DNA of 33,044 bases from Myxococcales bacterium (GTDB lineage: Bacteria > Myxococcota > Myxococcia > Myxococcales > Anaeromyxobacteraceae): NCBI GenBank assembly GCA_021782135.1, contig JAJXVM010000004.1, positions 1-33,044 on the forward strand, read 5' to 3'. Under the pieces are notes generated by a model, which searched no databases, was not told the origin of the DNA, and was given only the letters and a program-made list of their open reading frames with translations. The translations under genes and the position numbers were made by a program. Shown here piece after piece: positions 3,939-23,267 of this stretch (positions are counted from its first letter, which is position 1; each line of letters opens with the position of its first letter).

Positions 3939-4125
3939 GGCCGAGAGGCTAGGGTGGGGGGAGGGTGGGGATCAAGCGCCGTGAACGGGGTCGATGGAGC
4001 CCCCCCGCTTGCTCCGCCTGCCGGCCCCGGTCCCGGGCGCGCCCACCCCGGCGTGTCGAGGAGCGAGCCCGGGGAGCCCGGCCCCTGCCTCACGGTCCCG
4101 GTCGGGTGCCATGTATAGTCCGCCG

Positions 4126-6543
4126 GTGCCGACCGCCCGGAGTCGCCCCGCCGTCGAGGAGCCTGTCGCTCGGGGCGCGGGCGCGGTCCGCCCCGGGCTG
4201 CTCGCCGCGTCCGGACTCGCCGCGCTGGTGGTGCTCGCCTACCACCGCGTCCTGTTCCTCGGCGAGACCCTGGTCGCCAGCGACGCCCTGACCTTCACCC
4301 TCCCTTCCCGCGCGTTCCTGGGGGGATCGCTCCGCGCCGGCCGCTTCCCCCAGTGGGCGGACTGGATCGCGTTCGGCTCCCCCTTCGCGGCGAACCCCAT
4401 CCACGGAGTGACCTACCCGCCGCTCTGGCTCACCGGCGCGCTCCCGCCGCTGCTGGCCTCCGACCTGGTGAACGTCGCGCACCTGCTCGTGGCGGCGGTC
4501 GGCGCGTCGCTCTTCGCGTCCCGGCTCGGCGCCGGGGCGCTGGGGTGCTTCGCGGCCGGAGCCCTGTACGCGATCGGCGGCTACGCCGTGACGGTCGTGC
4601 CGAACGGGATGGCCATCGCCCTCGCCTGGCTGCCCTGGATCGCCTGGGCGGCCGATCGGCTCGCCGCCGATCCCGGGCCGCGGGTGGCCCCGCGCGTGGT
4701 CGGGCTCGCCATGGCGATCGCGCTGCAGGCGATGGCCGGGGAGCCGGGGCAGCTCGCCACCGCCGGCCTGGTGGCGGCCCTGGTGACGCTGGTCCGGGCC
4801 GAACGTCCGGGCCGGGCGATGGGGCGGCTGGCGCTGGCCGGCGCCGTGGCGGTGCCGCTCTCGGCCGCGGTGCTGCTGCCGGGCTGGGGCCTGCTCGGCT
4901 GGAGCGACCGGGCCACCGGCATGGGCGACCTCGCGCCCTCCGTCTGGGCGCTGCACCCGCTCCGGCTGGCGGAGCTGGTCTGGCCCGAGGTCCTGGGCGC
5001 GCGGAACGTGCCGTTCCTCGACCTGGGGCGGCTCCTCGCGAGCACCTCCCACGGCGCCGTCTCGAGCGCGTCCTGGTCGCGGAGCCTGTTCCTCGGCGCG
5101 CCCGCGCTGCTGCTCGCCGCCCGCGCGGGCCTCGCCGGCCGCCGCGAGCGCTGGCTGCTCCTCGGCTCGCTGCTCTTCGTGCTCCTCGCGCTCGGGGGCG
5201 CGACCCCGGTCTACGCGGCCTTCCGCTGGCTGCCGCCGTTCTCGCTGGCGCGCTATCCGGAGAAGTACGTGGACGGCGCCCTCCTGATCTGGTCGGCGCT
5301 GGCCGGCGCGGGGCTGACGGGCGCGTTCCGCGAGGGCGCCGGGCGGCGCCCGCTGCTGCTCGTTGCCGCCGTCGCGAGCGGCGCCCTGGCGGCGCTGGTC
5401 GCCGCGGGCTGGCTGCTGCGAGGACCGCTCGTCGAGGCGCTGCGGGAGTCCGCCCGGGCGAGCCGCTTCCCCTACGAGGTGGAGCGCGCGGTGGCGGTCT
5501 CCCTCCGGAGCGGGCTGGTCGCCGCGGCCGCGGCCGCGCTCTTCGCGGTCGGGCTCGCCCTCCGCTCGCGCCGCGCCGGGGCCGCGGTGTCGGCCTTGGC
5601 TCTGGTGGGCGCGCTCCTCTGGCACTCCCAGGCCATGATCCGCAGCGCGCCGCGGGCCCCGCTCTCCGCGCCGCCCGGGATCCTGGGGCCGCTCGCGCGC
5701 GACCCGTTCGCGGACCCCGGCCCGCGCCCCCGGCTGGCGGTGCTGCGCGGCACCGAGCAGGCGCCCAAGGCGATGTACGAGTCGCCGGCCGCCTTCGCGA
5801 GCGTCCTGCACGAGCACCTGTTCAACGACGTGGCGGCGCGGTTCGGGCTGGACGTGGTGCCCGGGTTCGACAGCGTCTCGAGCGCGCCCTTCGGCCGGCT
5901 CCGCGCCCTGCTCGAAGAGGCGCGCGCGCCCATGACCGCCCCAGGCCTGGCGCGGCTCGCCGGCGTCGAGTGCGCGCTCGTCTTCGTCGGCGACGCCCCC
6001 GCCTCCGGGTTGCCGGTCCTGGCGCGGCGAGGCTACGTCGCGCTCCTGGCGGCGCCGGCCCGTCCCCGCGCCTTCGTCGCGCCGAGGTGGGCCTGGACGG
6101 CGCCCGAGGCGGCGCTCCGCCTCGACGAGGAGGCCCTCGCCGGCTCGGGCCCGCCCGACCCGGCCCTGGTTCACCTGGAGGGAGCGGGAACGGACGGCGC
6201 GGGGCCGGATCGGGCCGCCGAGCCGCTCGCGCCCTGCGAGATCCGGGCGCCCACGCCCGAGGAGGTCCACCTCCGCTGCGACTCGCGGCTCGGCGGGTAC
6301 GCCGTCCTGCTCGACGCCCCCGCGCCCGGCTGGAGCGCGCGCGTGGACGGGACGCCGGCCCGGATCGAGGCCGCCGACGGCCTGTTCCGCGCGGTGCCGG
6401 TCGGGCCCGGGCCGCACGAGGTGACGTTCCGCTACCGGACGCCGGGGCTGCTGCTCGGGTCGGCGGTGGCCATCCCGAGCTGGCTCGCCTGCCTGGCGTT
6501 CGCCTTCGCGGCGGGGCGGCGCCGGTGGCCGGAGGCGCCTTGA
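4126..6543 (+). CDS. large polytopic membrane protein, YfhO-like (possible glycosyltransferase-type); start 4126 (GTG) or 4111 (ATG)
   Basis: Many TM segments; GETLVASDALTFTLPSRAFLGGSLRAGRFPQWADWIAFGSPFAANPIHGVTYPPLW resembles YfhO family; C-terminal soluble domain ending APGWSARVDGTPARIEAADGLFRAVPVGPGPHEVTFRYRTPG. Confidence 0.75.
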   Translation: MPTARSRPAVEEPVARGAGAVRPGLLAASGLAALVVLAYHRVLFLGETLVASDALTFTLPSRAFLGGSLRAGRFPQWADWIAFGSPFAANPIHGVTYPPLWLTGALPPLLASDLVNVAHLLVAAVGASLFASRLGAGALGCFAAGALYAIGGYAVTVVPNGMAIALAWLPWIAWAADRLAADPGPRVAPRVVGLAMAIALQAMAGEPGQLATAGLVAALVTLVRAERPGRAMGRLALAGAVAVPLSAAVLLPGWGLLGWSDRATGMGDLAPSVWALHPLRLAELVWPEVLGARNVPFLDLGRLLASTSHGAVSSASWSRSLFLGAPALLLAARAGLAGRRERWLLLGSLLFVLLALGGATPVYAAFRWLPPFSLARYPEKYVDGALLIWSALAGAGLTGAFREGAGRRPLLLVAAVASGALAALVAAGWLLRGPLVEALRESARASRFPYEVERAVAVSLRSGLVAAAAAALFAVGLALRSRRAGAAVSALALVGALLWHSQAMIRSAPRAPLSAPPGILGPLARDPFADPGPRPRLAVLRGTEQAPKAMYESPAAFASVLHEHLFNDVAARFGLDVVPGFDSVSSAPFGRLRALLEEARAPMTAPGLARLAGVECALVFVGDAPASGLPVLARRGYVALLAAPARPRAFVAPRWAWTAPEAALRLDEEALAGSGPPDPALVHLEGAGTDGAGPDRAAEPLAPCEIRAPTPEEVHLRCDSRLGGYAVLLDAPAPGWSARVDGTPARIEAADGLFRAVPVGPGPHEVTFRYRTPGLLLGSAVAIPSWLACLAFAFAAGRRRWPEAP

Positions 6544-6577
6544 CGCGGCCGGTGGTCGATCGCCGACAATGCGCGCC

Positions 6578-8218
6578 GTGAGCGCCGCCGAGGGACCCTG
6601 GCGCCCGGCGCGTCACGCGGCGAGCCTGCTCTGCGTGACGCTCCTCGGGATCGCCTGCTACGCGAACTCCCTGCGGGGCCCGTTCGTCGCCGACGACGCC
6701 TCCTCCATCGTGGACAACGGCCTCCTCCACGACCTCGGCAACTACCTCGGCAGCTTGCGCGGCTACGAGGCCCTGCCCAACCGCTACCTCGCCTACCTCA
6801 CCTTCGCGCTCAACTACCGCTGGGGCGGGCTCGAGGTCTTCGGCTACCACCTGGTGAACCTGGTCATCCACCTCGCGAACGCCGCGCTGGTGTACGCCCT
6901 GGTCTGGCTGGCCTTCGGGACGCCGCGCCTCGCCGGCTCGGCGCTGGTGCGCTCGCGGGGCTGGGTGGCGCTCCTGGCCGCGGCGCTCTTCGTCGCCCAT
7001 CCGATCGAGACCGCCGCCGTCACCTACGTGGCGCAGCGGATCGCCTCCCTGGCGACCTTCTTCTACCTGCTCGCCGCGGTGCAGTACCTGGCGTGGCGAT
7101 CGCGGCGCGCGGCCGGGGACCTGGGCGGCGCCGCCAGCGCGGCGCGCTCCCTGGCGCTCCTGCTCACCGTCCTCGCGGCGATGAAGACCAAGGAGATCGC
7201 CTTCACGCTGCCGCTGGCGCTGCTGCTGCTGGAGGTGAGCTTCTACGGGCGGCCCTCCGCGCGGACCGCCCTCCTCCTCGTCCCGCTGCTCGCCACCCTG
7301 GGCGTGATCCCGCTGACGCTGGTCGATCTCGGTCGCGGAGCGAGCATCGGCCAGGTCGAGCAGACGGTCCGGGCCGGAGGGCTCTCGCGCCTCGACTACC
7401 TCACGACCCAGTTCGCGGTGGTGGGGACCTACCTCCGCTTGCTGGTGCTCCCCATCGGGCAGAACCTCGACTGGGACTACCCGGTCTACCGCTCCCTGCT
7501 CGCCCCCGCGGTCGCGCTCGCCCTGGCGGTGCACCTCGCGCTGCTCGGGCTCGCGGCGTTCCTCTACCGGGGGGCCGCCCGGGGGCGGCTCGATCCGGCC
7601 TGGCGCCTCGTGGGCGCGGGCGTCCTGTGGTTCTTCCTCGCGCTGTCGGTCGAGTCGAGCCTGATCCCGATCGACGACGTGATCTTCGAGCACCGGGTCT
7701 ACCTCCCGAGCGCCGGCCTGATGGCCGCCGCCGCGACCGCGCTCTGCCTCCTGGCGGCGCGCCTGCCGCGGCCGCGGGCCGCCGCGGTCGGGTTGGTGGC
7801 GCTCGTGCTGGCGCTCGCGGCGGGCACCGCGCTGCGGAACCGGGTGTGGGGGAGCGCGGTCTCTCTCTGGGCCGACGTCGTCGAGAAGTCGCCCCGGAAG
7901 CCGCGGGCCCACCTGAACCTCGGGAAGGCGCTCGACGAGGCGGGGGATCCCGCCGCCGCGGTGCCGGAGTACGTGGCCGCCCTGCGCCTCGATCCCGCGT
8001 CGCCCGACGCGGGCAACGACCTCGGCGTCGCCCTGTTCCACCTCGGCCGGTATGACGAGGCGATCGCCGAGCTTCGCTCGGTGGTCCGCCTGGCGCCCGG
8101 CTACGCCGACGCGCACCTCAACCTCGGCATGGCCTACGCGAGGAAGGGCTGGGCCGAGCAGGCCAACCAGGAGATGAGCCTCGGCATGCGACTGCAGCCG
8201 GGAGCGGCCGCGCCCTGA
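6578..8218 (+). CDS. polytopic membrane protein with C-terminal TPR repeats (O-mannosyltransferase/TMTC-like); start 6578 (GTG) or 6569 (ATG)
   Basis: N-terminal GPFVADDASSIVDN, HLVNLVIHLANAALVY, HPIETAAVTYVAQR, HRVYLPSAGL; C-terminal TPRs (PRAHLNLGKALDEAGDPAAAVPEYVAALRLDP...). Confidence 0.8.
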   Translation: MSAAEGPWRPARHAASLLCVTLLGIACYANSLRGPFVADDASSIVDNGLLHDLGNYLGSLRGYEALPNRYLAYLTFALNYRWGGLEVFGYHLVNLVIHLANAALVYALVWLAFGTPRLAGSALVRSRGWVALLAAALFVAHPIETAAVTYVAQRIASLATFFYLLAAVQYLAWRSRRAAGDLGGAASAARSLALLLTVLAAMKTKEIAFTLPLALLLLEVSFYGRPSARTALLLVPLLATLGVIPLTLVDLGRGASIGQVEQTVRAGGLSRLDYLTTQFAVVGTYLRLLVLPIGQNLDWDYPVYRSLLAPAVALALAVHLALLGLAAFLYRGAARGRLDPAWRLVGAGVLWFFLALSVESSLIPIDDVIFEHRVYLPSAGLMAAAATALCLLAARLPRPRAAAVGLVALVLALAAGTALRNRVWGSAVSLWADVVEKSPRKPRAHLNLGKALDEAGDPAAAVPEYVAALRLDPASPDAGNDLGVALFHLGRYDEAIAELRSVVRLAPGYADAHLNLGMAYARKGWAEQANQEMSLGMRLQPGAAAP

Positions 8219-8748: not shown

Positions 8749-8843
8749 GCGACCTCCGGAGCGGATGGGCTCACTCTAGCACCGATCCCCCGCGCCGGCC
8801 GGCCGGGCCCGCCCCGCCGGACCCGGTGCTATGCTCGGCGGAG

Positions 8844-9839
8844 ATGCTCCTCGAGACGCTCACTTCCCTGCTCGCCGCCGCGGCGCTGGCCGCGGCTCCG
8901 TACAACCCGGGGACCGCCGCCAAGGGGGTCTGGATCTACGACCTCTCGGACAGCAGCGGCCCCGTGCCGTCCACCTGGGCTTCGCTGGCCTACGACACGA
9001 AGCACCACGAGCTCTACGTCACCGACCGCTCCGACGGGTCGGTCGGGGTGTTCAACGACGCGGGCATGGAGGTCTACCGGTTCGGGGCCGACGAGGAGTT
9101 GGGCACGATCGTCGACGTGGCGCCGCTCGAGGAGGGCGACCTGGCGGTGCTGGCGAGCCAGAAGGGACGGCCGGTGCTGTGGCGCTGCAACTTCCGCGGG
9201 GAGCGGAAGGCCCGCATCTCCATGGACAAACTGCCGCCCGAGTTCGCGAACGGCTTCTTCCCCGATCGAGCGGTGGCGCGGGGGAAGCGGCTCTACCTGG
9301 CCGAGCGCGGGGCCATGAAGGTCGCGGTCCTCGGGCTGGACGGCGCCGTCGAGGAGACGCACGACTTCTTCCACCAGCTCGAGCTCGACAAGCTGAAGAG
9401 CGCGCGGGGCGGCATTCCCGCGATGCAGGCCTTCAACGTGGACGAGGCCGGCAACATCCTCTTCACCGTGGCTCCGATGTTCCGGGCCTTCATCATCAGC
9501 CCCTCGGGGTCGGTCACCTCGTTCGGCGAGCGGGGCGGCTCGCCGGGCAGGTTCAACGTCGTCGGCGGGATCACCCGCGACTCCTCGGGCCGGCTGATCA
9601 TCGGCGACGTGCTCCGGTGCGTGGTGATGGTCTTCACGCCGGACCTGGAGTTCCGGGGGGAGTTTGGGGGCCGCGGGTGGGGGCCGGGTGACCTGATCGC
9701 GCCCCTCGACGTCGCTTTCGGGAACGGGCTGGTCTTCGTCTCCCAGAGCGCACGGCGGGGCGTGAGCGTCTATCGCCTGACCGTCCAGGAGCCGACGGCG
9801 CCGCCCGCGGCCGCGCCCGCGCCGGCCGCGGCGCGCTGA
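8844..9839 (+). CDS. secreted NHL-repeat (beta-propeller) protein
   Basis: Signal peptide MLLETLTSLLAAAALAAAPYNPG; repeated blade-like motifs (LYVTDRSDGSVGVFND, GGITRDSSGRLIIGDVLRCVVMVFTPDLEFRGEFGGRGWGPGDLIAPLDVAFGNGLVFVSQ). Confidence 0.8.
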   Translation: MLLETLTSLLAAAALAAAPYNPGTAAKGVWIYDLSDSSGPVPSTWASLAYDTKHHELYVTDRSDGSVGVFNDAGMEVYRFGADEELGTIVDVAPLEEGDLAVLASQKGRPVLWRCNFRGERKARISMDKLPPEFANGFFPDRAVARGKRLYLAERGAMKVAVLGLDGAVEETHDFFHQLELDKLKSARGGIPAMQAFNVDEAGNILFTVAPMFRAFIISPSGSVTSFGERGGSPGRFNVVGGITRDSSGRLIIGDVLRCVVMVFTPDLEFRGEFGGRGWGPGDLIAPLDVAFGNGLVFVSQSARRGVSVYRLTVQEPTAPPAAAPAPAAAR

Positions 9840-10332: not shown

Positions 10333-11745
10333 ATGAAGGCGCTCAGATACGCAGTCGCCGTGGTCGCCTCGCTTGCCTTCGGCAATGCGTGGGCGTTCCA
10401 CGATGGCGGCGTCGCTTACTGCGATGGCTGCCACTCGATGCACAACTCGTCGGGCAACAAGTTCATGTCGGGCGGCCGGAACACCGGCCTCACCGGCTGG
10501 AACGCGCTCGGCGCGGCTTCCACCACCCAGTTCCAGGGCAACAAGTTCCTGCTCCAGGGCTCGGACGACAGCTCGACCTGCCTCAACTGCCACGCCGCCG
10601 CCGACAAGGCGCCCAGCGGCTACCACGTGATGACCTTCCCGGCCCCGGCGGCCGGCACGGCGCCGGTGGAGCGGACCCCGGGCGGCGACTTCGCCTGGCT
10701 GACGGTCTCCACCACCGCGACGGCCAGCTACGGCGCCCCCATCAGCAACAAGGGCGAGCGCCACGGCCACAACGTCGTCGCCCAGGACTACGGCCTGGTC
10801 GCCGACAGCACCCTGCTCACCGCTCCGGGCGGCCAGTATGACGCCACCAAGCTGAGCTGCGCCTCCTGCCACGACCCGCACAGCCGCGCCCGCGTGGTCG
10901 ACGCCAACGGGACGATCGCCTACCCGTCGCTCCCGAACGGCTCCACTCCCGGCAGCAACGTCCTGCCCATCGGCAGCTCCGGCTCCTACGGCGCCACCGC
11001 GAGCGGCAGCGAGGCCGTGGGCGTGTACCGCCTCCTCGGCGGCGCGAACTACTCGCAGATGTCCTACACCAACCCGCTGCCCTTCAACGCCAACCCGCCG
11101 ATCGCGGTGGCTCCGTCGACCTACAACCGGTCTGAGAGCGTGACCGAGACCCGCGTGGCCTACGGCCAGGGCATGTCCGAGTGGTGCTCCAACTGCCACC
11201 GCTCGATCCACAACGACAACACCAACACCTCCAACACCGCGCTCATCCACCCGGCCGGCAACGGCGCCAAGCTGACCGCCACCGCCAACGACCTGGCCGG
11301 CAACGCCAACGGCACCACCATCGCCGCCATCTACAATGCGTACGTCGCCTCGGGCAACCTGACCAACACCCAGGCCTCGTCCTACACCTCCCTCGTCCCG
11401 TACGAGGAGGGCACCAACGTGATCGCCACCCTGGCCGGCCACGCGGTGAACGATGGCTCGCAGAAGAGCGGCCCGCAGACCGGCAGCGAGAACGTGATGT
11501 GCCTCTCCTGCCACCGCGCGCACGCTTCCGGTTGGTCCAGCATGACCCGCTGGAACAACCAGGCCGAGTTCATCACCATCGGCGGCGCCTACCCCGGCAC
11601 CGACGCGACCGGCGAGGGCACCTACGGCCAGTACAACCTGGGCTACACCACGGTTCAGGTCACGGCGGCCCTCTACGATCGCCCGGCGACCAACTTTGCC
11701 TACGCGCAGCGGTCCCTCTGCAACAAGTGCCACGCCAAGGATTAA
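10333..11745 (+). CDS. omcS: hexaheme c-type cytochrome, OmcS-like (filament/nanowire-forming family)
   Basis: Signal peptide MKALRYAVAVVASLAFGNAWA; six CXXCH; from memory of Geobacter sulfurreducens OmcS, near-identical blocks: FHDGGVAYCDGCHSMHNS, VAPSTYNRSESVTETRVAYGQGMSEWCSNCHRSIHN, HPAGNGAKL, CLSCHRAHASGWSSMTRWN, C-terminal LCNKCHAKD. Confidence 0.93.
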   Translation: MKALRYAVAVVASLAFGNAWAFHDGGVAYCDGCHSMHNSSGNKFMSGGRNTGLTGWNALGAASTTQFQGNKFLLQGSDDSSTCLNCHAAADKAPSGYHVMTFPAPAAGTAPVERTPGGDFAWLTVSTTATASYGAPISNKGERHGHNVVAQDYGLVADSTLLTAPGGQYDATKLSCASCHDPHSRARVVDANGTIAYPSLPNGSTPGSNVLPIGSSGSYGATASGSEAVGVYRLLGGANYSQMSYTNPLPFNANPPIAVAPSTYNRSESVTETRVAYGQGMSEWCSNCHRSIHNDNTNTSNTALIHPAGNGAKLTATANDLAGNANGTTIAAIYNAYVASGNLTNTQASSYTSLVPYEEGTNVIATLAGHAVNDGSQKSGPQTGSENVMCLSCHRAHASGWSSMTRWNNQAEFITIGGAYPGTDATGEGTYGQYNLGYTTVQVTAALYDRPATNFAYAQRSLCNKCHAKD

Positions 11746-11834: not shown

Positions 11835-13244
11835 GTGAAACTCGCGCGCCTGTGGCTCCTCGCCTTTCTGCTGTCCGGCTGTGGTCTCCTCACTCCGCGC
11901 CCGAGCGGCCGTCCGCCGCTGACGGATCAGGGCGCGCTCTTCCTCTATCTCGAGCCCTGGCCCGACGGCGCCGGCCGGCTCTCCGTCACGCTCTCGTCGG
12001 TGACCGCGGTGCGCTCGGACGGCGTGCCGGTTCCGCTGGAGCTCGCCCTGACCGACCTCCCCGGCCCGGACGCGAAGCGCCAGCGGCTGCTCGCGTCGGC
12101 GCAGCTGCCGCCTGGCGCCTACCGCGGCCTGGAGGTCACGGCGGCCCGGGCCCGGGTGATCGGCGGCGAGGGCCCGGCGGACCTGCTGATCGGCAAGGAG
12201 CCGACCTCGCTGGAGGCGCCCTTCGAGATCGCCGCCGGCCAGGCCAAGGTGCTCACGCTGACGCTCCGGTACGAGGCCTCCCTCCCCGCGGGCGTGACCT
12301 TCGTCCCCCGGTTCCTGGTCGGGACCCCGCCGCGCCCGCCGCCCATCCTGTACGGCTTCTGCTCCAACACCAACGAGAACACCCTGACGCTCTTCGAGCG
12401 CCGCCAGCACGAGGTCTTCCGGGTGCTGGCCACCGGGCGGGCGCCCCGCGGGCTCGCCCTGGGGAGCCCCCCCAGCACGCGCCTCTTCGTCGCGGTGGAG
12501 CGCGAGGACGAGATCCAGCCGTTCGAGATCACCGGCGACCTGCCGCTCCCGCCGCTCAAGCTGGTCCCCGGGGACCGGCCCTGGGAGGTGGCGCTCTCGC
12601 CGGACGCCCGGACCCTGCTGGTGCTGAACAACGGCTCCAACTCGCTCGCCTTCCTCGACGCCGCGAGCGGCGCCGAGCGCGGGCGGGTCGCGGTGGGCAT
12701 CTCGCCGATCTCGCTCCTCGTCGATCGCTCCTGGCGCCGCGCCTACGTCCTCAACGACGTGTCCAGCAGCATCACGGTGGTCGACCTGGCCACCCGCAAG
12801 GTGTTCGGCTCGATCCCCACCGGCGCCGGACCGCTCCGGGCGCAGCTCAACCGCGCCGGGGACAAGCTGTACGTGATCGCCTCCGGCTCTCCGCAGCTGC
12901 AGGTCTTCTCGGTCCCGGCGTTCACCATGACCAGCCAGATCACCATCGGGCTGGGCGCCACGGCGCTGAAGGTCGATCCGCGCACCGACCTGGTCTACGT
13001 GGCCAAGCAGGGCGAGCACCGGGTCTACGTCTACGACTCCTTCTCGCTCATCCCCATCGACTCGATCGACCTGCCGGGAGACGCCAGCTGGTTCGCCATC
13101 GACGACACCGAGAACGCCCTTCTCGCGCTCATGCCCTCCCTGCGCGGGGTGGCGGCCGTGGATCTCGCCAGCCACCGGGTGCTGGGCGTGATCCCGGTGG
13201 GGGACGAGCCGTACGAGGTCACGGTCGCCGACGAGAGGTACTGA
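11835..13244 (+). CDS. lipoprotein: N-terminal DUF4382-like domain plus YVTN-type beta-propeller
   Basis: Lipobox LLSGC; repeated propeller motifs (AYVLNDVSSSITVVDLATRKVFGSIPTGAGPLRAQLNRAGDKLYVIA; DLVYVAKQGEHRVYVYDSFSL; GVAAVDLASHRVLGVIPVGDEPYEVTVAD). Confidence 0.8.
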   Translation: MKLARLWLLAFLLSGCGLLTPRPSGRPPLTDQGALFLYLEPWPDGAGRLSVTLSSVTAVRSDGVPVPLELALTDLPGPDAKRQRLLASAQLPPGAYRGLEVTAARARVIGGEGPADLLIGKEPTSLEAPFEIAAGQAKVLTLTLRYEASLPAGVTFVPRFLVGTPPRPPPILYGFCSNTNENTLTLFERRQHEVFRVLATGRAPRGLALGSPPSTRLFVAVEREDEIQPFEITGDLPLPPLKLVPGDRPWEVALSPDARTLLVLNNGSNSLAFLDAASGAERGRVAVGISPISLLVDRSWRRAYVLNDVSSSITVVDLATRKVFGSIPTGAGPLRAQLNRAGDKLYVIASGSPQLQVFSVPAFTMTSQITIGLGATALKVDPRTDLVYVAKQGEHRVYVYDSFSLIPIDSIDLPGDASWFAIDDTENALLALMPSLRGVAAVDLASHRVLGVIPVGDEPYEVTVADERY

Positions 13245-13251
13245 GAGGCTC

Positions 13252-15447
13252 GTGATTCACCGGCGCCCAGGTCCGCTCGTCGCGCTGGCGCTGGCTCTGG
13301 CGCCCTCCGCCGCGCTGGCCGACGGGATCTCGGCCTACCTGCAGCCCGAGTACGATCACGTGGACACGCGCAGCACCGACAGCACCGGCCGGACCACCCA
13401 GTCGTCCAGCGACGAGCTCCTCCAGCAGTACGTGCTCGGCCTGTCCCAGACGCTGGCGCCCCTGCTGCACTTCGACGCCAACGGGACCTTCAACGACCAG
13501 CGGGCCTGGACCACCCAGGATCAGGTGCCCTCCCGGTCCGACTCCTGGTCGGGCTCCGGCAGCGCGCGGCTCCACATCGGGCCCCCCGTGCTCGGCGGGG
13601 ATCTCAGCTACCAGCGCTCGGAGGACTCGACCGGGAGCTCCCTCAGCCCCGCCACCCTCCACGAGGTGAACGAAGCCTACAGCCTGCACCTCGGCTGGCA
13701 CCCGGCCGACATGCCCGACCTCGACGTGCTCGCGACGCGAGGGGACAACTACGACGTGGGCAAGCAGTACATGGACGTGGTCAGCGACGACGTGCTCACC
13801 ACCCTGACCTACAACGGCTGGAAGCAGCTGCGGGTCCAGTACAGCGTGGAGTACCAGAAGGTCGCCGACGAGCTGCACGCCTCGACCACCACCAGCCTCC
13901 TCAACGCCGGGCGGCTCAGCTACGCCGACAGCTTCGACGGCGGGCGCACCAGCGTGCAGGCCAACTACGACTTCATGAACCGGCTCGCGGACACCTCGAC
14001 CGCGGGGGTGGGGGGCATGGTGTCGACGCAGCAGCTCCCCGCGGCGGGGCTCTCGCTGGTGGACCAGCCGACGACCCTGCCGCAGACCGACACCCTCCAG
14101 CAGAACGGGCTGCTGGTGGACGGCAAGACCGACGTCTCCGCCGGCATCAACCTGGGCTGGTCGATCGGGCTCGCCGGCGACACCAACGCCCGCGAGCTCG
14201 GGGTCCAGTTCTCGGACCCGACCACCCAGCTCAACACCGTCTACGTCTACGTCTCGCAGACCTTGCCGCTCGACGTCTCGTCGGCCTTCACCTTCACCGC
14301 CTGGACCAGCGACGACAACGTCAACTGGACCTCGGTCCCGCTCGCCGCGGCGACGGTCTTCAACACCCTCCTGCGCCGCTTCGAGGTCACCCTCGCCAAG
14401 GTCCAGGCCCGGTACGTGAAGCTGATCACCTACCCCATCGCGCCCGCGGTCAGCACCGACCGCCGCTACTCCGACATCTTCGTGACCGAGCTGCAGACCT
14501 ACCTGGTGGTCCCGGCGGAGTCGGTCCGCGGGCGGAGCTCCCTCACCTCGCAGGACGTCTCGGTCGCCCTGCGCCGGCAGCTCTTCTCCGAGCCGCTGGT
14601 GGCCTACGACTTCGCGGCGAACGGCTCCTACAGCGCCGGGAACGCCTCCTACACCATCCAGAACGGGGTCAGCTTCGACAAGGCGCTCGAGTCCTGGCTG
14701 CGGCTCTCCTCCCGCTTCGCCCGGATGGACTCGGGGATCCGGAACGAGGCCGGGCCGTCGGAGCACAACGGCGCCTGGCAGTACTCGGCCTCGCTGGTGA
14801 GCCGCCCCCTGGACACGCTCACCCAGTCCTTCACCTACAACGGGCAGCTCGCGCAGGACGTGCACGGCTCCTCGGCGTTCAACGCGGTCACCTTCGTGAA
14901 CCGTGCCTCGCTGTACCGCGGGGTGGACTTCCTCGTGTCCGCCGGCTACACGCAGAACTACCTCTCGAGCGGGGCGGTCTCGAGCGGGCCGCAGGTCGTG
15001 GCCACCGCCTCGCTGACGCCGAACAAGGTGGTCACGCTCTCGTCCACCTACACCTACTCCGGCCTCCACCAGGTCGGCGGCGGGCTGCCGGAGAGCGAAC
15101 TGGACGACGAGCGGCTCGACGGCTCGGTCTCGATCACTCCGTTCCGCGCCCTCTTCCTGTCGGCCTCGGTGCAGCGGGTGATCAAGGGCGCGCGCCCGAC
15201 CACGCTCGCCAGCGCGAGCGCCTCGTTCACGCCGTTCCCCGACGGGGACCTGCTGCTCCGCTCCTCGTACACCGACTCCCTCGACACCTCGCTCGACGCC
15301 CGGACGCAGCTCGGCACCGCCGGGCTGCGCTGGACGATCTCCACCCACGCCTACGTCGACGTAAACTACACGCTGCTCGACGCGGCCGCCCCCGAAGGCA
15401 CGACGCAGACCAAGACCTTCACGGCCAGCCTGTCCGTGCAGCTCTGA
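13252..15447 (+). CDS. outer-membrane beta-barrel (porin-like) protein with internal discoidin (F5/8 type C)-like segment
   Basis: GTG start after GAGAGG; signal peptide; alternating-hydrophobicity strands with short polar turns, C-terminal YVDVNYTLLDAAAPEGTTQTKTFTASLSVQL; internal FTAWTSDDNVNWTSV...RRFEVTLAKVQARYVKLITYPI. Confidence 0.75.
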   Translation: MIHRRPGPLVALALALAPSAALADGISAYLQPEYDHVDTRSTDSTGRTTQSSSDELLQQYVLGLSQTLAPLLHFDANGTFNDQRAWTTQDQVPSRSDSWSGSGSARLHIGPPVLGGDLSYQRSEDSTGSSLSPATLHEVNEAYSLHLGWHPADMPDLDVLATRGDNYDVGKQYMDVVSDDVLTTLTYNGWKQLRVQYSVEYQKVADELHASTTTSLLNAGRLSYADSFDGGRTSVQANYDFMNRLADTSTAGVGGMVSTQQLPAAGLSLVDQPTTLPQTDTLQQNGLLVDGKTDVSAGINLGWSIGLAGDTNARELGVQFSDPTTQLNTVYVYVSQTLPLDVSSAFTFTAWTSDDNVNWTSVPLAAATVFNTLLRRFEVTLAKVQARYVKLITYPIAPAVSTDRRYSDIFVTELQTYLVVPAESVRGRSSLTSQDVSVALRRQLFSEPLVAYDFAANGSYSAGNASYTIQNGVSFDKALESWLRLSSRFARMDSGIRNEAGPSEHNGAWQYSASLVSRPLDTLTQSFTYNGQLAQDVHGSSAFNAVTFVNRASLYRGVDFLVSAGYTQNYLSSGAVSSGPQVVATASLTPNKVVTLSSTYTYSGLHQVGGGLPESELDDERLDGSVSITPFRALFLSASVQRVIKGARPTTLASASASFTPFPDGDLLLRSSYTDSLDTSLDARTQLGTAGLRWTISTHAYVDVNYTLLDAAAPEGTTQTKTFTASLSVQL

Positions 15448-15456
15448 AGAGGAACC

Positions 15457-16029
15457 ATGCGAGCTCGCCCGTCCCATCTCCTGGTCGTCGCGGCGCTGGC
15501 GCTCCTGGCCGGTTGCGCCGGCAGCGGCGGCAACTACCACGACCCCAACATGGACTTCGGCTCGGTGAAGACGGTCGCGGTGCTCCCGTTCACCAACCTG
15601 TCCCGCGACTCCGCCGGGGCCGAGCGGGTGCGCGACGTCTTCGTCAACATGCTGCTCGCCAGCGGGTCGATCTACGTCCTGCCGAACGGCGAGGTGGCGC
15701 GCGGCCTGAACCGCCTCGGCGTGCAGAACGCCGCCAACCCCAGCGTGGAGGAGCTGACGAAGCTGGGGAGCTTCCTTAAGTGCGACGCGATCATCGGGGG
15801 GGTGGTCAAGGAGTACGGCGAGGTCCACTCGGGCAACGCCGCCGCCAACGTGGTCTCGGCGAGCGTGCAGATGTTCGAGTCGGCGAGCGGCCGGGTGATC
15901 TGGTCGGCGTCGTCCACCAAGGGCGGCATCTCGCTCACGGACCGGATGTTCGGCGGGGGCGGGGTGCCGGCGAACGACGTGACGGAGTCCCTCGTCAATG
16001 ACCTGCTGGACCGGCTCTTCAAGCAGTAG
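15457..16029 (+). CDS. lipoprotein, GNA1162/CsgG-like family
   Basis: Lipobox LLAGC; KTVAVLPFTNLSRDSAGAERVRDVFVNMLLASGSIYVLPNGEVARGLNRLG...CDAIIGGVVKEYG...SVQMFESASGRVIWSASSTKGG. Confidence 0.8.
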   Translation: MRARPSHLLVVAALALLAGCAGSGGNYHDPNMDFGSVKTVAVLPFTNLSRDSAGAERVRDVFVNMLLASGSIYVLPNGEVARGLNRLGVQNAANPSVEELTKLGSFLKCDAIIGGVVKEYGEVHSGNAAANVVSASVQMFESASGRVIWSASSTKGGISLTDRMFGGGGVPANDVTESLVNDLLDRLFKQ

Positions 16030-17170
16030 CCGCGCCGGGCGGGCGGTCGCGCTCGTGCTGACGTCGCTGGTGGCGTGCGCCTCGGCGCGCCCGGCCGGCG
16101 CGCCCGCGGCGTCCGGCGGGGGCGCGAGGGCGTTCCGGGTGGCGGTGCTCCCGGCCGACAGCCTCTCGTCCGGGCCGGTGCCGCTGCGGGCGGTCACCAC
16201 GCAGGTGGAGCGCGCCATGGAGGCGGCCGGCCTGAAGGTGGTCGGCGGAGACGCCGTCGAGGCCTACCTCGAGAACCACCGGCTGCGCTTCACCGGCGGC
16301 GTGGACGGTCCGGCGGCGGCGGCGGCGCGCGGGGAGCTCGGAGTGGACGGGCTGCTCATCACCACCGTCGAGGAGCACGAGCTGGAGGGCCCGCCGCGGC
16401 TGGCGATCACCTTCCGGCTCGTCTCGGCGTCCGAGGACGCGCGCATCCTCTGGACCGACGGCTTCGGCCGCGCCGGCGACGACGCGCCCGGCCTGCTCGG
16501 GCTCGGGGTGGTGCGCGACTACCGCCGCCTCGAGGCGCGGGAGCTGGTCCGCATGGCCCGGTCCCTGACGCTGGCGCTCGACGGCCGTGGCCCGCGCGCG
16601 CCGCCCTGCCCCGCCGAAGGGCGCTTCGAGCCGAGCGTGCTCTACCGCTCCCCGGACTTCCAGCCCGCGGGCAGGTACTCGGTCGCGGTGCTCCCGTTCG
16701 TCAACGAGACGTCGCGGCGCCGGGCCGGCGACCTGCTGGCGCTCGAGCTGACTCGCCAGCTCGCCGGGATCGGGCGGCTGCGGGTGATCGAGCCCGGCGT
16801 CACCCGCGACCGGCTCATCCACTACCGGGTCATCATGGAGGGCGGGGTCTCCCTCGACACGGCCCGGGTGACGCTCGAGACGGTGGGCGCGGACCTGGTG
16901 ATCGCCGGGTACGTGCGCGAGCTGTCGGAGGGCGCCGATCCCTCGCTCGAGTACACCGCGCTCGCGCTCGACCGATCGGGAAAGATGGTCTGGCAGGCCA
17001 CCTCCCACGGCAACGGCTCGGCGGGAGTCTGGTTCTTCGACTGGTCCATGATCGGCTCGGCGAGCCAGCTCGCGTGCCGGTTGGCCCGGGGCTCGGCGGT
17101 GTCTCTCTTCGGAGAGGGCGACACCGGCGGGACGGAGGTGGCGCTGCCGGCGAAGGGGGGGAAGCAATGA
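15998..17170 (+). CDS. lipoprotein with two tandem CsgG/LpoB-like modules (start uncertain; a start downstream of 16029 is possible)
   Basis: Lipobox LVAC (VLTSLVACASARP); two halves each beginning with a VAVLP strand (FRVAVLPADSL..., YSVAVLPFVNETSRRRAGDLLALELTRQLAGIGRLRVIEPG...). ORF overlaps the upstream gene by 32 nt. Confidence 0.75.
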   Translation: MTCWTGSSSSSRAGRAVALVLTSLVACASARPAGAPAASGGGARAFRVAVLPADSLSSGPVPLRAVTTQVERAMEAAGLKVVGGDAVEAYLENHRLRFTGGVDGPAAAAARGELGVDGLLITTVEEHELEGPPRLAITFRLVSASEDARILWTDGFGRAGDDAPGLLGLGVVRDYRRLEARELVRMARSLTLALDGRGPRAPPCPAEGRFEPSVLYRSPDFQPAGRYSVAVLPFVNETSRRRAGDLLALELTRQLAGIGRLRVIEPGVTRDRLIHYRVIMEGGVSLDTARVTLETVGADLVIAGYVRELSEGADPSLEYTALALDRSGKMVWQATSHGNGSAGVWFFDWSMIGSASQLACRLARGSAVSLFGEGDTGGTEVALPAKGGKQ

Positions 17171-17372: not shown

Positions 17373-19118
17373 GTGAATCGACGGATCGCCGTGGCAACCG
17401 CCCTGCTCGGGCTCGCCGCTCCCGCGTTCGCCGCTCCGGCGGCCAGCTCCGCCCCGGCGGCTCCCGCGCCGAGGCCGGCGACGGCCTCCGCCGGGCAGGG
17501 CGACATGCGCGCCTTCCTGGTCCGCGACGGCCGCGAGGCGCAGGTGCCGCTCTTCTCGCCCGACGCGCTCACCCTGGCGGTGGCGCGGGTGGACGACGAG
17601 GAGATCACGCTCCAGCAGCTGACCGACGCGCTCCTCACCGCGCACCGCGCCGGCCACTCCGGCGAGACCAGCCAGCACGACTTCCGGCCGGTGCTCGACC
17701 GGCTCATCGACATGAAGCTCTGCGTCCTCGAGGCGCGCGAGATGGGGCTCGACGAGCTGCCCGAGGTGAAGCGGGCGATCCAGGACGAGGAGACGAGCCA
17801 GCTCCTGCTGCGCGTCCGCGCCGCGGCGGTGAAGGACGTGAAGGCCGACCCGGCGGAGGTGGAGCGCCTGTACCGGGACGCGGTCCGCGAGTACCTGATC
17901 CGCTCCCTCCTGTTCCGCGCCGAGGGCGACGCCAAGACCTTCCAGAAGGCGCTCGCGGCCGGCGGGGACTTCGAGGCGCTCGGGAAGAAGAGCATCGACG
18001 CCAAGAAGGCCGTCGGGAGCATGGCCCCCGGGTACGTCGGGCTCGGCGGCATGAAGCCCGAGGTGGCGAAGGCGGTGGCCGGCGCCGCCGCCAAGGCGGT
18101 CCGGCTGGTGAAGCTGCCCGACGGCTGGACGGTGGTGCAGGTGGCCGGCATCCGCTACCCCGAGAAGCCCGAGGAGCGCGCGCGCGCCCAGGAGAAGGCG
18201 CTCGAGGGGGCCAAGCAGCGCGTGGCCATCAGGTACTACGAGGTGCTCGCGAAGCAGCACGCGCACGTCGACAAGAAGCTGGTGAGGAAGCTCGACCTGG
18301 AGGCGAAGAGGCCGGGCCTGGCGGCGCTCCGCAAGGACCCCCGCCCGCTGGCCACCATCGACGGCGAGCCGCCGCTCACGGTGGCCGACCTGCTCCGAGG
18401 CATGGAGGGCAAGTTCTTCCACGGGCTCGAGGCGCCGGTGAAGGAGCACCGCGCCAACGCGGCCAAGGAGGAGGTGCTCCACGTCCTGCTGCGCAAGCGG
18501 CTGGTGCTGGCCGAGGCGCGCCGCCAGAAGATCGCCGAGAGCGTGGAGTTCCGGCGCTACATGGCCGAGTTCACCGACGCCACCCTCTTCAGCGCCTACG
18601 TCGAGCGCGCGGTCATGCCCGACGTGAAGGTGACCGACCAGGAGGGGCGCGCCTACTACGAGAAGCACAAGGCCGAGTTCGCCACCCCGGCCATGTACAA
18701 GCTCGAGAGCCTCACCTTCTCCAGCGCCGCCGACGCGCAGCGCGCCTACGACAAGCTCCGCGCCGGCACCGACTTCAAGTGGCTGCGGTCCAACGCCGGC
18801 GGGCAGGTGAAGGAGGATCTGCGCAAGGCGCAGCTCGACGACGCGGTGGTGAGCGCCGGCGCCATCCCGCCGGAGCTGGCGAACCAGCTCCAGGGCGCCA
18901 AGACGGGGGACTGCCGGCTGCAGGAGATCGACGGCCAGTTCTTCCTGATCCGGCTCGTGAGCGCCACCCCGGGGAGCCAGCAGCCCTACCAGGCGGCGCG
19001 GTCGGCCATCGGGAAGAAGCTCGTGATCGAGGACCTGAACAAGGCGCTCAAGGACTCGACGGCCAAGATCCGCATGGCGCACAAGGTCAGCGTCTACCTG
19101 ACCCGCATCGGCCACTAG
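17373..19118 (+). CDS. SurA/PpiC-type peptidyl-prolyl cis-trans isomerase, periplasmic
   Basis: GTG start with AGGAAG upstream, signal MNRRIAVATALLGLAAPAFA; SurA-like N domain (VARVDDEEITLQQLTDALL...VLDRLIDMKLCVLEAREMGLDELPEVKRAI) and parvulin-like region (VKVTDQEGRAYYEKHKAEFATPAMYKLESLTFSSAADAQRAYDKLRAGTDF). Confidence 0.85.
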   Translation: MNRRIAVATALLGLAAPAFAAPAASSAPAAPAPRPATASAGQGDMRAFLVRDGREAQVPLFSPDALTLAVARVDDEEITLQQLTDALLTAHRAGHSGETSQHDFRPVLDRLIDMKLCVLEAREMGLDELPEVKRAIQDEETSQLLLRVRAAAVKDVKADPAEVERLYRDAVREYLIRSLLFRAEGDAKTFQKALAAGGDFEALGKKSIDAKKAVGSMAPGYVGLGGMKPEVAKAVAGAAAKAVRLVKLPDGWTVVQVAGIRYPEKPEERARAQEKALEGAKQRVAIRYYEVLAKQHAHVDKKLVRKLDLEAKRPGLAALRKDPRPLATIDGEPPLTVADLLRGMEGKFFHGLEAPVKEHRANAAKEEVLHVLLRKRLVLAEARRQKIAESVEFRRYMAEFTDATLFSAYVERAVMPDVKVTDQEGRAYYEKHKAEFATPAMYKLESLTFSSAADAQRAYDKLRAGTDFKWLRSNAGGQVKEDLRKAQLDDAVVSAGAIPPELANQLQGAKTGDCRLQEIDGQFFLIRLVSATPGSQQPYQAARSAIGKKLVIEDLNKALKDSTAKIRMAHKVSVYLTRIGH

Positions 19119-19147
19119 CGCCGCGCACCCGCGGAGAAGAGGCGACC

Positions 19148-21100
19148 GTGAACAAGCTCGAGAATCGGTGGGTGGTCCTCCTGGTGGGCGCGCTGGCGGC
19201 GGGGCTGGCGCTCTCGCCCGTCCGCGCCGGCGCGGCGGAGCGGAAGTTCAAGACCAAGGGCTGCGCGGACTGCCACCAGAAGGCGGTCGAGAAGTTCAAG
19301 GAGGCGAAGTTCGCCCACGCCGCGGTCAAGGACCAGAAGTGCGAGGCCTGCCACCTGCGCCACGGCACGGTGGGCAAGCTGCTGCTGAAGCAGCAGGGGA
19401 ACGCCCTCTGCTACTCCTGCCACAAGCGGGACGCGATCGGGATGGACAAGCCGGTGGTGCACAAGGTGCTCCGCAGCGGCTCCTGCACCCAGTGCCACGA
19501 TCCGCACGGCTCGCAGGCCCCGCACCTCCTCAAGGCGGAGGGCGCGGAGGCCTGCTTCGGCTGCCACGCCCGCGAGCCGTTCCAGCGCAAGACGGTCCAC
19601 GCCGTCCTGAAGAGCGGCTGCGCCTCCTGCCACGCCGCGCACGCCTCCTCGGTCCCGAACCTCCTCGTCGCCGATCAGGCGAAGCTCTGCGCCCAGTGCC
19701 ACGCCTCGAACGGCGCCTTCCAGAAGGCGCACGGCGGCTACCCGGTCACCACCTGCACCGGCTGCCACGACCCGCACTCGTCCGACGGTCCCAAGCTGCT
19801 CAAGCCGACCGTGCACAACCCGGTGGCCAGCCAGTCCTGCGACGCCTGCCACGTGCCGGCCGGCTCGCCCAAGCCGTTCGCGGTCCAGGCCACCGGCTTC
19901 AAGCTCTGCGAGACCTGCCACGACGCCAAGGACTTCTCCGGCAAGGTCCAGCACGCGCCGGTGAAGAAGGGCGAGTGCCTCTCCTGCCACGACCCGCACG
20001 CCTCCGCCACGCCCAAGCTGGCGCGCGCGGCCGGCGCGCAGCTCTGCGTGCGCTGCCACAAGCGCTTCGCCGACGCGCCCGCCGTGCCGCACAAGCCGAT
20101 GAGCTCGCCCGAGGGCTGCCGCTCCTGCCACCAGGTCCACGCCTCGGCGAACGCCAAGCTCCTCAAGCAGCCCGCCGACCAGATCTGCGGCTCCTGCCAC
20201 GCCAAGGTGAAGGAGGAGGCGGCCAAGAAGAAGGTGGTCCACCCGGCCTTCCTGGCCGGCGACTGCGGCTCCTGCCACGACCCCCACGGCGCCGCCACCC
20301 GCAACCTCTTCAAGGCCCGCGCCGACCAGGTCTGCTACTCGTGCCACCGCGACGAGGAGACGCGGTTCGTCAAGGTGCACACCCACCGGCCGGTGCAGGA
20401 CGGCAACTGCACCGCCTGCCACGACGGCCACGCCTCGGACAACCCCAAGCTGCTCAGGGCGACCGGGTCCAAGCTCTGCGAGGGCTGCCACTCGCAGCTG
20501 TTCAAGCCGCTCGGGGACGGCGAGGTGGCCCACAAGCCGTTCGCCGAGGGCAAGTGCCTCGACTGCCACGACCCGCACGGCTCGAACGCGCCGGGGATGG
20601 TCCGGACCGACCAGAAGTCGCTCTGCCTGGGCTGCCACACCGCCGCGGCGAAGCAGCTCGACGGCGCGAAGAGCATCCACCCCGCGTTCTCGCAGGGCGA
20701 GTGCTCCAAGTGCCACAACCCCCACCGGTCCAGCATGAAGAAGCTGCTGCTGGCCTCCCCGCCCGACCTCTGCTTCGCCTGCCACAAGGCCATGAAGGCC
20801 CGCATCGACGGGCTGAAGCAGCACGCGCCGGTCGGCGACTGCCTCACCTGCCACAGGCCGCACGCCTCGGACCAGCCGAAGCTGGCGGCGGAGGCGGGCT
20901 CGGCGCTCTGCCTGCAGTGCCACGACGGCGCGGAGAAGACCTTCGCCGCCGCCCACCTCGGCATCGACCCCAAGGTGATCCGCTGCGTGAGCTGCCACGA
21001 CCCCCACGCGTCCAAGGACCCGAAGTTCTTCAAGCCCAACCAGCACGCGCCCTTCGCCGGCGGCCAGTGCGACGCCTGCCACGCCGTGGCCGGGAAGTAG
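19148..21100 (+). CDS. 26-heme c-type cytochrome (secreted)
   Basis: GTG start (VNKLENRWVVLLVGALAAGLALSPVRAGAA signal); 26 CXXCH motifs counted, many as CxxCHDPH(A/G)S. Confidence 0.93.
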   Translation: MNKLENRWVVLLVGALAAGLALSPVRAGAAERKFKTKGCADCHQKAVEKFKEAKFAHAAVKDQKCEACHLRHGTVGKLLLKQQGNALCYSCHKRDAIGMDKPVVHKVLRSGSCTQCHDPHGSQAPHLLKAEGAEACFGCHAREPFQRKTVHAVLKSGCASCHAAHASSVPNLLVADQAKLCAQCHASNGAFQKAHGGYPVTTCTGCHDPHSSDGPKLLKPTVHNPVASQSCDACHVPAGSPKPFAVQATGFKLCETCHDAKDFSGKVQHAPVKKGECLSCHDPHASATPKLARAAGAQLCVRCHKRFADAPAVPHKPMSSPEGCRSCHQVHASANAKLLKQPADQICGSCHAKVKEEAAKKKVVHPAFLAGDCGSCHDPHGAATRNLFKARADQVCYSCHRDEETRFVKVHTHRPVQDGNCTACHDGHASDNPKLLRATGSKLCEGCHSQLFKPLGDGEVAHKPFAEGKCLDCHDPHGSNAPGMVRTDQKSLCLGCHTAAAKQLDGAKSIHPAFSQGECSKCHNPHRSSMKKLLLASPPDLCFACHKAMKARIDGLKQHAPVGDCLTCHRPHASDQPKLAAEAGSALCLQCHDGAEKTFAAAHLGIDPKVIRCVSCHDPHASKDPKFFKPNQHAPFAGGQCDACHAVAGK

Positions 21101-21112
21101 GAGGCGGACCTC

Positions 21113-22375
21113 ATGCGCTCGCGGATTCTCCTGGCCCTCCTCGCCGTCCTCCTCCTCCCCCCCGCCCGGGCGCTGGCCGCGCCCGACCCCTTCAAGCTCA
21201 AGCCCGGCGCCGACGGCAAGGTCTGCCTGGGCTGCCACTCGGGTGAGCTCGACCCGGTGCTCAAGAAGCCGTTCGTGCACACGCCGGTGAAGTCGCGGAA
21301 CTGCGTCGGCTGCCACAGCCCGCACGCCGCCAACCACGGCAAGATGCTCGCCGACGAGCCCGGCAAGATCTGCGCGAGCTGCCACGACGTGGTCCCGGCC
21401 AAGCCCAAGAGCACGCACGAGCCGGTGGAGAGCGGCTGCACCACCTGCCACGATCCCCACGCCTCGAACTTCAAGAACAACCTGGTGAAGGCGCCGCAGG
21501 ACCTGTGCGCGGGCTGCCACAAGCCGGTGCTGCAGACCGCGACCGACGCGAAGTTCAAGCACTACCCGGTGCAGCAGGACTGCACCACCTGCCACGACCC
21601 GCACGGCTCGGCCAGCTCCGCCTCGCTGCTCAAATCGGCGGTGCCGCAGCTCTGCGTCGGCTGCCACAAGATGAACCGGCCCAACCTGGTCGCCAAGCAC
21701 CAGGGCTACCCGGTGGCGACGGCGCGCTGCACCGCCTGCCACGACCCGCACGGCTCGAACGTGCGCGGCATGCTCTACGACCACGTGCACCCGCCGGTGG
21801 CCAAGGCGATGTGCGGCCAGTGCCACGAGCCGCCCGGCTCGCCCAAGGGCTTCCAGCCCAAGCTCGCCGGGGTGGCGCTCTGCAAGGGCTGCCACGCGCA
21901 GAAGGTCAACTCGATGCTCGACCGCAACCGGGTGCACTGGGCGGTGCTGGGCGGCGACTCCTGCCTCGGCTGCCACAGCCCCCACGCCGGCAAGGACAAG
22001 GGGATGGTGAAGGGCAACATGGTGACCGTCTGCGGCGCCTGCCACGCCGACACCATCAAGCGCCAGGCGCTCTCCGAGACCAAGCACAAGCCCATCTCCG
22101 ACGGGCAGTGCACCAAGTGCCACGATCCGCACGGCTCGAGCGCGCCGCTCCTGCTGGTGAAGCCGGACGCCATCGAGCTCTGCGGCACCTGCCACGACTG
22201 GCAGAAGCACTCCACCCACCCGCTGGGCCCGAGCCACAAGGACCCGCGCAACCAGAACCTGACGCTCAACTGCCTGAGCTGCCACCGCGCGCACGGGACC
22301 GAGTACAAGCACATGAACCCGTTCCCCACGACGACCGAGCTCTGCACCAAGTGCCACGCGAGCTTCCGGAGGTGA
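21113..22375 (+). CDS. 16-heme c-type cytochrome (secreted)
   Basis: Signal MRSRILLALLAVLLLPPARALA; 16 CXXCH motifs counted, CxxCHDPHGS repeats; ends CTKCHASFRR. Confidence 0.93.
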   Translation: MRSRILLALLAVLLLPPARALAAPDPFKLKPGADGKVCLGCHSGELDPVLKKPFVHTPVKSRNCVGCHSPHAANHGKMLADEPGKICASCHDVVPAKPKSTHEPVESGCTTCHDPHASNFKNNLVKAPQDLCAGCHKPVLQTATDAKFKHYPVQQDCTTCHDPHGSASSASLLKSAVPQLCVGCHKMNRPNLVAKHQGYPVATARCTACHDPHGSNVRGMLYDHVHPPVAKAMCGQCHEPPGSPKGFQPKLAGVALCKGCHAQKVNSMLDRNRVHWAVLGGDSCLGCHSPHAGKDKGMVKGNMVTVCGACHADTIKRQALSETKHKPISDGQCTKCHDPHGSSAPLLLVKPDAIELCGTCHDWQKHSTHPLGPSHKDPRNQNLTLNCLSCHRAHGTEYKHMNPFPTTTELCTKCHASFRR

Positions 22376-22379: not shown

Positions 22380-23267
22380 GTGTCCACGTCGATGAAGAGC
22401 GCCCTGGCGCTGCTCCTGCTCTGCGCCGCGCCCGCCGCGCGGGCCGACATCGCCCTCGTCTCCCGCGGGCCGGTGTACGCCGACGCCAAGGCCGTTCCGT
22501 TCCAGGCGCCCGAGGGGGTGGCCTGCAGCGACGGCGGCCTGGTGGTGGCCGACACCGGCAACGGCCGGCTGGTCCGGTTCGACTGGAAGGACGGGGTGGT
22601 GAGCGGCGGGACCGAGATCAAGCTCGCGCAGCTCACCTACCCGATCCGCCTCCAGCTCGACTCGAAGGGAGACCTCCTGGTGCTCGACCGCAGGGCGAAG
22701 CGCATCGCCCGGCTCGACCCCAAGGGCGCCTTCCAGGGGTGGGTGGATCCCAAGGGCGCCGCCAACGTGGTCCCGCTCGCCTTCAAGGTGGACGCCGCCG
22801 ACGCCCTCTACGTCCTCGACCAGACCTCGGGGTCGGTCCTGGTCCTCGACGCCTCCGGCGCCGTGACCCGCACCGTGCCGCTGCCGAAGCGGCCGGCGAT
22901 CTTCGTGGACCTGGCGGTGGACGGGGCCGGCACCATCTACGCCCTCGACGCCGCCGGCTCGGAGGTCTGGTCGGTGGAGAAGGCCGGCGCCGAGTTCAAG
23001 CCGCTCTCGAAGGGGCTGAAGGACGCGATGAGCTTCCCGTCCTACCTCACCACCGACGGCAAGGGCGCGCTCCTCGTCAGCGACCAGAACGGCAACGGCA
23101 TCGTGCTGCTCGGGATCGACGGCAGCTACCTCGGCCGCCGGCTCTCGATCGGCTGGAGCGAGGGCGCGGTCTACTACCCCGTCCAGCTCTGCCTCACGCC
23201 GTCCGGCGAGCTGGCGGTGGCCGACCGAGGCAACAATCGGATCGACCTCTTCACCGTGACCCGCTAG
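22380..23267 (+). CDS. secreted NHL-repeat beta-propeller protein
   Basis: GTG start 5 nt after the 16-heme gene; signal MSTSMKSALALLLLCAAPAARA; GVACSDGGLVVADTGNGRLVRFDW ... LCLTPSGELAVADRGNNRIDLFTVTR. Confidence 0.85.
   Translation: MSTSMKSALALLLLCAAPAARADIALVSRGPVYADAKAVPFQAPEGVACSDGGLVVADTGNGRLVRFDWKDGVVSGGTEIKLAQLTYPIRLQLDSKGDLLVLDRRAKRIARLDPKGAFQGWVDPKGAANVVPLAFKVDAADALYVLDQTSGSVLVLDASGAVTRTVPLPKRPAIFVDLAVDGAGTIYALDAAGSEVWSVEKAGAEFKPLSKGLKDAMSFPSYLTTDGKGALLVSDQNGNGIVLLGIDGSYLGRRLSIGWSEGAVYYPVQLCLTPSGELAVADRGNNRIDLFTVTR

Follow-up and report, generated by a model that had tools for sequence, protein, structure and literature searches.

The locus described in this report sharpens the question of which OmcS-like cytochromes really form wires. 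The window, by which we mean the whole stretch of DNA that was analysed (33,044 nucleotides from a Myxococcales bacterium of the Anaeromyxobacteraceae, contig JAJXVM010000004.1), contains at positions 10333-11745 a gene for a hexaheme cytochrome, and this gene heads a complete eight-gene osc, or nanowire secretion, block on the same strand (11835-23267). We consider it probable that the cytochrome is exported across the outer membrane and polymerises into an OmcS-like heme filament for extracellular electron transfer; its secretion, polymerisation, conduction and physiological role are what we infer from the gene and its surroundings.

OmcS homologues were reported in Anaeromyxobacter dehalogenans by a survey based on an E-value and coverage cut-off, the main-text passages of which neither distinguish clades of OmcS nor deal with the osc block or with subunits being exchanged (Portela et al. 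2024, PMC10954620). Such homologues in Anaeromyxobacter, as well as the osc block, are already published. What appears to be new here is a complete block with a single subunit from outside the OmcS clade in this genome, and an exchange of subunits independent of the block, a topic for which our literature search was non-exhaustive. The genome (3.38 Mb in 375 contigs, 81% complete) holds one OmcS-family gene and one osc block, and its available part contains no OmcS orthologue, which leaves little paralogue background for testing filaments made outside the OmcS clade.

A hexaheme cytochrome of the OmcS family

The gene and the features of its product are as follows.

10333..11745, + strand: OmcS-family hexaheme c-type cytochrome, putative extracellular filament subunit, 470 amino acids (aa), mature form of 449 aa from 10396 (sequence and predicted fold)
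10333..10395, + strand: Sec signal peptide of 21 aa, cleaved between AWA and FHDGG (sequence and OmcS alignment)
10396..10551, + strand: N-terminal arm, mature residues 1-52, with the heme-1 site, H2 and H16; low confidence in the monomer model
10420..11733, + strand: six CXXCH heme sites, starting at 10420, 10579, 10858, 11185, 11500 and 11719

The reading frame opens with ATG just 3' of a GGAGG motif, and the guanine plus cytosine (GC) fractions at its three codon positions are 0.56/0.55/0.95 in a window of 73% GC; this start context and codon pattern together indicate that 10333-11745 is a real gene. Scans for promoters, terminators and Rfam families gave nothing above chance. A first-pass annotation of the window had noted six CXXCH motifs and large blocks of OmcS-like sequence over the whole length of the protein. 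Indeed, the 470-aa precursor has exactly six CXXCH (residues 30, 83, 176, 285, 390 and 463), every one of these blocks is present, and the alignment is full-length: in a phmmer search of all PDB chains, OmcS (6ef8/6nef) is the sole significant sequence match (E 4.8e-105, residues 22-470 against 1-407). The second-best chain reaches only E 0.14, and no other hexaheme family came closer, a possibility for which the annotation had allowed. Identity to OmcS amounts to 56% (223 of 398 aligned residues), the mature N-terminus aligns as FHDGG with FHSGG of OmcS, and the window protein is unchanged at all 60 positions that are at least 95% conserved among 120 family members. With six CXXCH in the OmcS order and full-length homology, it is a member of the OmcS family.

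Structure prediction likewise gives the OmcS fold. AlphaFold2, run on the monomer with a 60-sequence alignment and without templates, produced a model with a mean predicted local distance difference test (pLDDT) of 84 and a predicted template modelling score (pTM) of 0.85, and 6ef8_A is its sole significant PDB fold match (Foldseek; E 7.4e-41, template modelling (TM) scores 0.75/0.82, root-mean-square deviation 2.7 Å). The only long uncertain part is the arm of mature residues 1-52, which holds heme 1 and H16; low confidence in a monomer model would be as expected if this arm is held by a neighbouring subunit. OmcE and OmcZ, which are also extracellular cytochrome wires with close heme packing but have four and eight hemes, gave no significant sequence or fold match to the window protein (phmmer and Foldseek, PDB).

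In OmcS, all 12 axial heme ligands are histidines, one of which, on heme 505, comes from the neighbouring subunit (PMC6584659). The window protein keeps all six CXXCH and, in the pairwise alignment, 9 of the 11 other OmcS histidines. Among the 120 family members, H2, H13, H51, H110, H144, H147, H243, H257, H332, H335 and H404 are 99-100% conserved, while H16 is 84% conserved across the family and complete in the clade of the window protein. This conservation and the count of 12 axial histidines point to H2, H16, H110, H147, H257 and H335 as the probable distal ligands, because six of the twelve conserved histidines belong to CXXCH motifs; all six are present in the window protein, which thus keeps 12 of 12 predicted heme ligands. 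H16 is likely to be the inter-subunit histidine, in OmcS as in the window protein.

OmcS (GSU2504; 6EF8/6NEF) and the window protein are therefore alike in their six CXXCH, their termini (FH.GG and NKCHAKD), their predicted fold and the 12 presumed ligands, H16 included. They differ in that the mature window protein is 42 residues longer, has three larger insertions and falls into a separate clade; moreover, the filament has been seen for OmcS, whereas the window protein is known from sequence.

The osc block and the position in front of it

The cytochrome gene is surrounded by the following genes, the individual Osc names being assigned by position.

8826..9839, + strand: NHL-repeat protein, upstream syntenic partner of block-adjacent OmcS-family genes
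11835..13244, + strand: YVTN-type beta-propeller with a lipobox-like N-terminus, first block gene, OscD-equivalent
13252..15447, + strand: outer-membrane beta-barrel, ~26 long strands, a beta domain being inserted at residues ~256-420; by position the OscE-equivalent
15457..16029, + strand: GNA1162-like lipoprotein, OscF-equivalent by position
15998..17170, + strand: second lipoprotein-like protein, true start uncertain, OscG-equivalent by position
17373..19118, + strand: PpiC-type peptidyl-prolyl isomerase, probable GTG start (open frame from 17211), OscH-equivalent
19148..21100, + strand: 26-heme c-type cytochrome of 650 aa, equivalent of GSU2495 (OscI; 26 hemes, ~70 kDa)
21113..22375, + strand: 16-CXXCH c-type cytochrome, OscJ/GSU2494-equivalent
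22380..23267, + strand: NHL-repeat protein, eighth and last block gene, GSU2493 position

In Geobacter sulfurreducens, GSU2500-GSU2493 form an eight-gene block 3' of the OmcS-like gene GSU2501, which passages of PMC12977616 (citing Shen et al. 2025) link to OmcS maturation and secretion; the GSU2495 product has 26 hemes and ~70 kDa (PMC12977616). The relevant passages of PMC13194489 give the names oscC, oscI and oscJ to GSU2501, GSU2495 and GSU2494 and, citing Shen et al. 2025, attribute folding to OscH, secretion to OscE/F/G and morphology to OscD. The window block has the same eight genes in the same order (propeller, beta-barrel, two lipoproteins, isomerase, 26-heme cytochrome, second multiheme cytochrome, NHL protein) and agrees with GSU2500-GSU2493 in gene order, gene type and the number of 26 hemes. 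Protein identity to Geobacteraceae osc blocks is low (~24-59%, five genes), and the window subunit belongs to another clade of the OmcS family. Anaeromyxobacteraceae, Geobacteraceae and Nitrospirota share this gene order, and Rokubacteria have it in a once-rearranged form: in a Candidatus Rokubacteria genome (L163, G047) the block is split, the propeller, barrel, lipoproteins and isomerase standing together on one strand and the two multiheme cytochromes and last NHL gene on the opposite one. The model of the window's beta-barrel protein has long strands (AlphaFold2; pLDDT 86, pTM 0.62), and its PDB matches are all loose barrel matches (TM ~0.2-0.35) with no close relative among them; residues 288-392 give a weak Pfam match of F5/F8-type C.

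Does the position in front of the block mark a wire subunit? We called a family gene block-adjacent when it lies at most 2.5 kb upstream of an OscD homologue, and non-adjacent when at least 4.5 kb of downstream sequence holds no OscD homologue. H16 is kept in 60 of 60 block-adjacent genes versus 13 of 24 non-adjacent ones (Fisher p=1e-7, which overstates the evidence, as most of the H16-less proteins are relatives of one another). This would be in keeping with a need for H16 in the polymers that the block exports. Among the 60 block-adjacent genes, none was found to encode an H16-less paralogue. The H16-less proteins include a group of hexaheme family members (for example L053, L057, L060, L061, L063, L070, L111 and L115) with, in examples, CHTTPP or a CHG-type sequence in place of CHTMHNS; these are candidates for non-polymerising members of the family.

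The window protein could itself be a non-filamentous OmcS-family cytochrome, either a monomeric electron carrier of the surface or periplasm or an accessory to the secretion block and not the cargo that polymerises, as might be OmcT, OmcJ or GSU2501/OscC. Its position is in keeping with this: GSU2501/OscC, an OmcS-like hexaheme cytochrome, adjoins the block from upstream in Geobacter (clades 3A/3B, PMC12977616), exactly as the window gene does, whereas the OmcS gene lies upstream of omcT and GSU2501. In addition, the listing in PMC13194489 gives GSU2501 as predicted periplasmic, without a known filament, and the window protein falls outside the clade of OmcS. We nevertheless regard this explanation as unlikely, in view of the retention of H16 and of all distal ligands, the missing association of H16-less paralogues with blocks, and the fact that the cytochrome is the sole OmcS-family gene of the available genome, where the block would otherwise have no known cargo. 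Furthermore, OmcS-clade proteins occupy the identical slot in sister genomes.

Two side observations concern the vicinity of such blocks. A metagenome-assembled genome (Deltaproteobacteria NC_groundwater_1655, L030) has three OmcS-family genes in one stretch, and its osc block starts ~5 kb past the last one. Upstream of the cluster in the window, 6569-8218 encodes a membrane protein with C-terminal tetratricopeptide repeats, homologues of which lie near several osc clusters (L147, L154, L155, L030), so that a link is possible.

Separate histories of subunit and block

Trees were calculated with FastTree and IQ-TREE, Geobacter relatives (G050, C. bremense) standing in for GSU2501, OmcT and OmcJ of G. 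sulfurreducens, which were left out. The window protein clusters with Anaeromyxobacter, Nitrospirota, Geomonas and a few Geobacter proteins (ultrafast bootstrap (UFBoot) 100), in a clade separate from that of OmcS and from the second block-adjacent copies of Citrifermentans and G050. Constraining it together with OmcS was rejected (approximately unbiased (AU) test, p=2.2e-5), while deeper nodes, including the exact position of OmcS, are weak (UFBoot ~50-65). It follows that the window protein is a paralogue or xenologue of the OmcS family outside the G. sulfurreducens OmcS clade, and it groups within a separate clade of block-adjacent subunits, for which filament formation is putative. The neighbourhood in Geobacter sp. 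H2geo corresponds to clade 3A (PMC12977616). The clade with the second Citrifermentans copy (3B-like) is separate and ~46% identical to the window protein, GSU2501 being compared by way of these relatives.

This placement bears on whether the protein could be a direct orthologue of G. sulfurreducens OmcS, to which the wire function could be transferred by name. The 56% identity, the same ligands and the same fold would agree with orthology, but many paralogues from several phyla show comparable identity, and both the support for the other clade and the rejected constraint make it very improbable. The proposal of an OmcS-type nanowire in the first-pass annotation is supported by the fold, the heme ligands, H16 and the adjoining osc block, with the qualification that the protein stands outside the OmcS clade.

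The block genes tell a different story from the subunit gene. In the window, they have their closest counterparts (59-83% for five genes, UFBoot 100) in a genome of the same genus that consists of a single contig. The block-adjacent subunits of Geobacter sp. AOG1 (L145, G041) and H2geo (L146, G042) share 74% and 66% identity with the window protein, respectively, and nest inside the Anaeromyxobacter subunits, their exclusion being rejected by the AU test (p=0.006) though not significantly by the Shimodaira-Hasegawa test. Their block genes, in contrast, have a mean identity of 38-39% and group with Geomonas (UFBoot 100). In both strains the upstream NHL gene has the subunit gene on its opposite flank, and the subunit gene's GC fraction (0.62-0.64) exceeds that of its neighbours (0.55-0.59). 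Conversely, three Anaeromyxobacteraceae genomes (G002, G004, G008) carry OmcS-clade subunits directly upstream of their blocks, and monophyly of the block-adjacent subunits of this family was rejected (AU p about 1e-63).

Subunit gene and osc block thus differ in their histories. The arrangement in AOG1 and H2geo suggests that only the wire subunit was replaced horizontally, the Geobacter block behind it being native; more generally, horizontal transfer seems to have exchanged subunit genes before resident blocks between Anaeromyxobacteraceae and Geobacteraceae, both transfer and direction being read from the nesting. Part of the pattern in G002, G004 and G008 could be due to differential loss of old paralogues. 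That proteins of the window clade and of the OmcS clade share the slot before the same type of exporter is the strongest indirect reason to regard both as its cargo, and it supports the window protein as an exported wire subunit.

Another explanation for the locus would be a contaminant Geobacter contig binned into this genome. The assembly is fragmented into 375 contigs, and the subunit has the close relative in AOG1 mentioned above, but the window has a GC content, and the cytochrome a third-position GC, of 73% and 0.95, the block genes are nearest to the single-contig genome of the same genus, and G001, a genome of this genus, has the same cluster; contamination is hardly credible.

A putative wire, its exporter and its host

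The evidence leads us to favour the following scheme for an exported OmcS-like filament. The apo-protein would be exported by Sec and then loaded with six hemes; the isomerase of the block would fold the cytochrome, and the beta-barrel and two lipoproteins would carry it through the outer membrane. The N-terminal arm of each subunit, with H16, would insert into its neighbour and complete a heme ligand pair, such that the head-to-tail polymer would be a filament with an unbroken heme stack, a heme chain reaching out from the cell surface. Electrons from the periplasm probably reach the wire by way of the 26-heme and 16-heme cytochromes.

Several points weigh against this scheme. The protein is outside the OmcS clade, and among the OmcS-type cytochromes of G. 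sulfurreducens polymerisation has been shown for OmcS alone (PMC12977616). Relative to OmcS, it carries insertions of 15, 11 and 12 residues, which might change the interface. With the genome 81% complete, a further subunit may have been missed. Lastly, even in Geobacter the respiratory role of the OmcS filament is disputed (PMC11077965).

Going one step further, we lean slightly towards the view that true wire subunits include a second, as yet uncharacterised clade to which the window protein belongs, perhaps the original osc cargo, and that the subunit is an exchangeable module, horizontally replaced while the resident block is kept, one exporter thereby serving wires of quite different sequence. 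The apparent exchange of subunits between blocks suggests that the exporter tolerates different cargoes, which, if true, would be relevant to the engineering of protein wires.

As for the host, 14 of the 24 Anaeromyxobacteraceae genomes searched, its own included, have an OmcS-family gene, and G001, a near-complete genome of the same genus, carries equivalent genes. Two close relatives, G001 (L148/L149) and G022 (L150/L151), have a pair of osc clusters lying apart, and either cluster comes with an OmcS-family subunit of its own; the window genome, in its available 81%, lacks the second cluster. CXXCH-type DNA patterns number 294 in this genome against 79 in a reversed control, which would suit an organism that respires by means of multiheme cytochromes. 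A search of the genome for porins of the MtrB/PioB family found none, and a scan for c7-type periplasmic cytochromes gave several multiheme proteins but no clear PpcA. Elsewhere in the window are genes for a YfhO-like membrane protein (3994-6543), a pyridine nucleotide-disulphide oxidoreductase (28709-29653, - strand), a DsbA-like thioredoxin-fold protein with a SurA-like N-terminus (29806-30876, + strand) and GcpE (IspG; 30953-32065, + strand).
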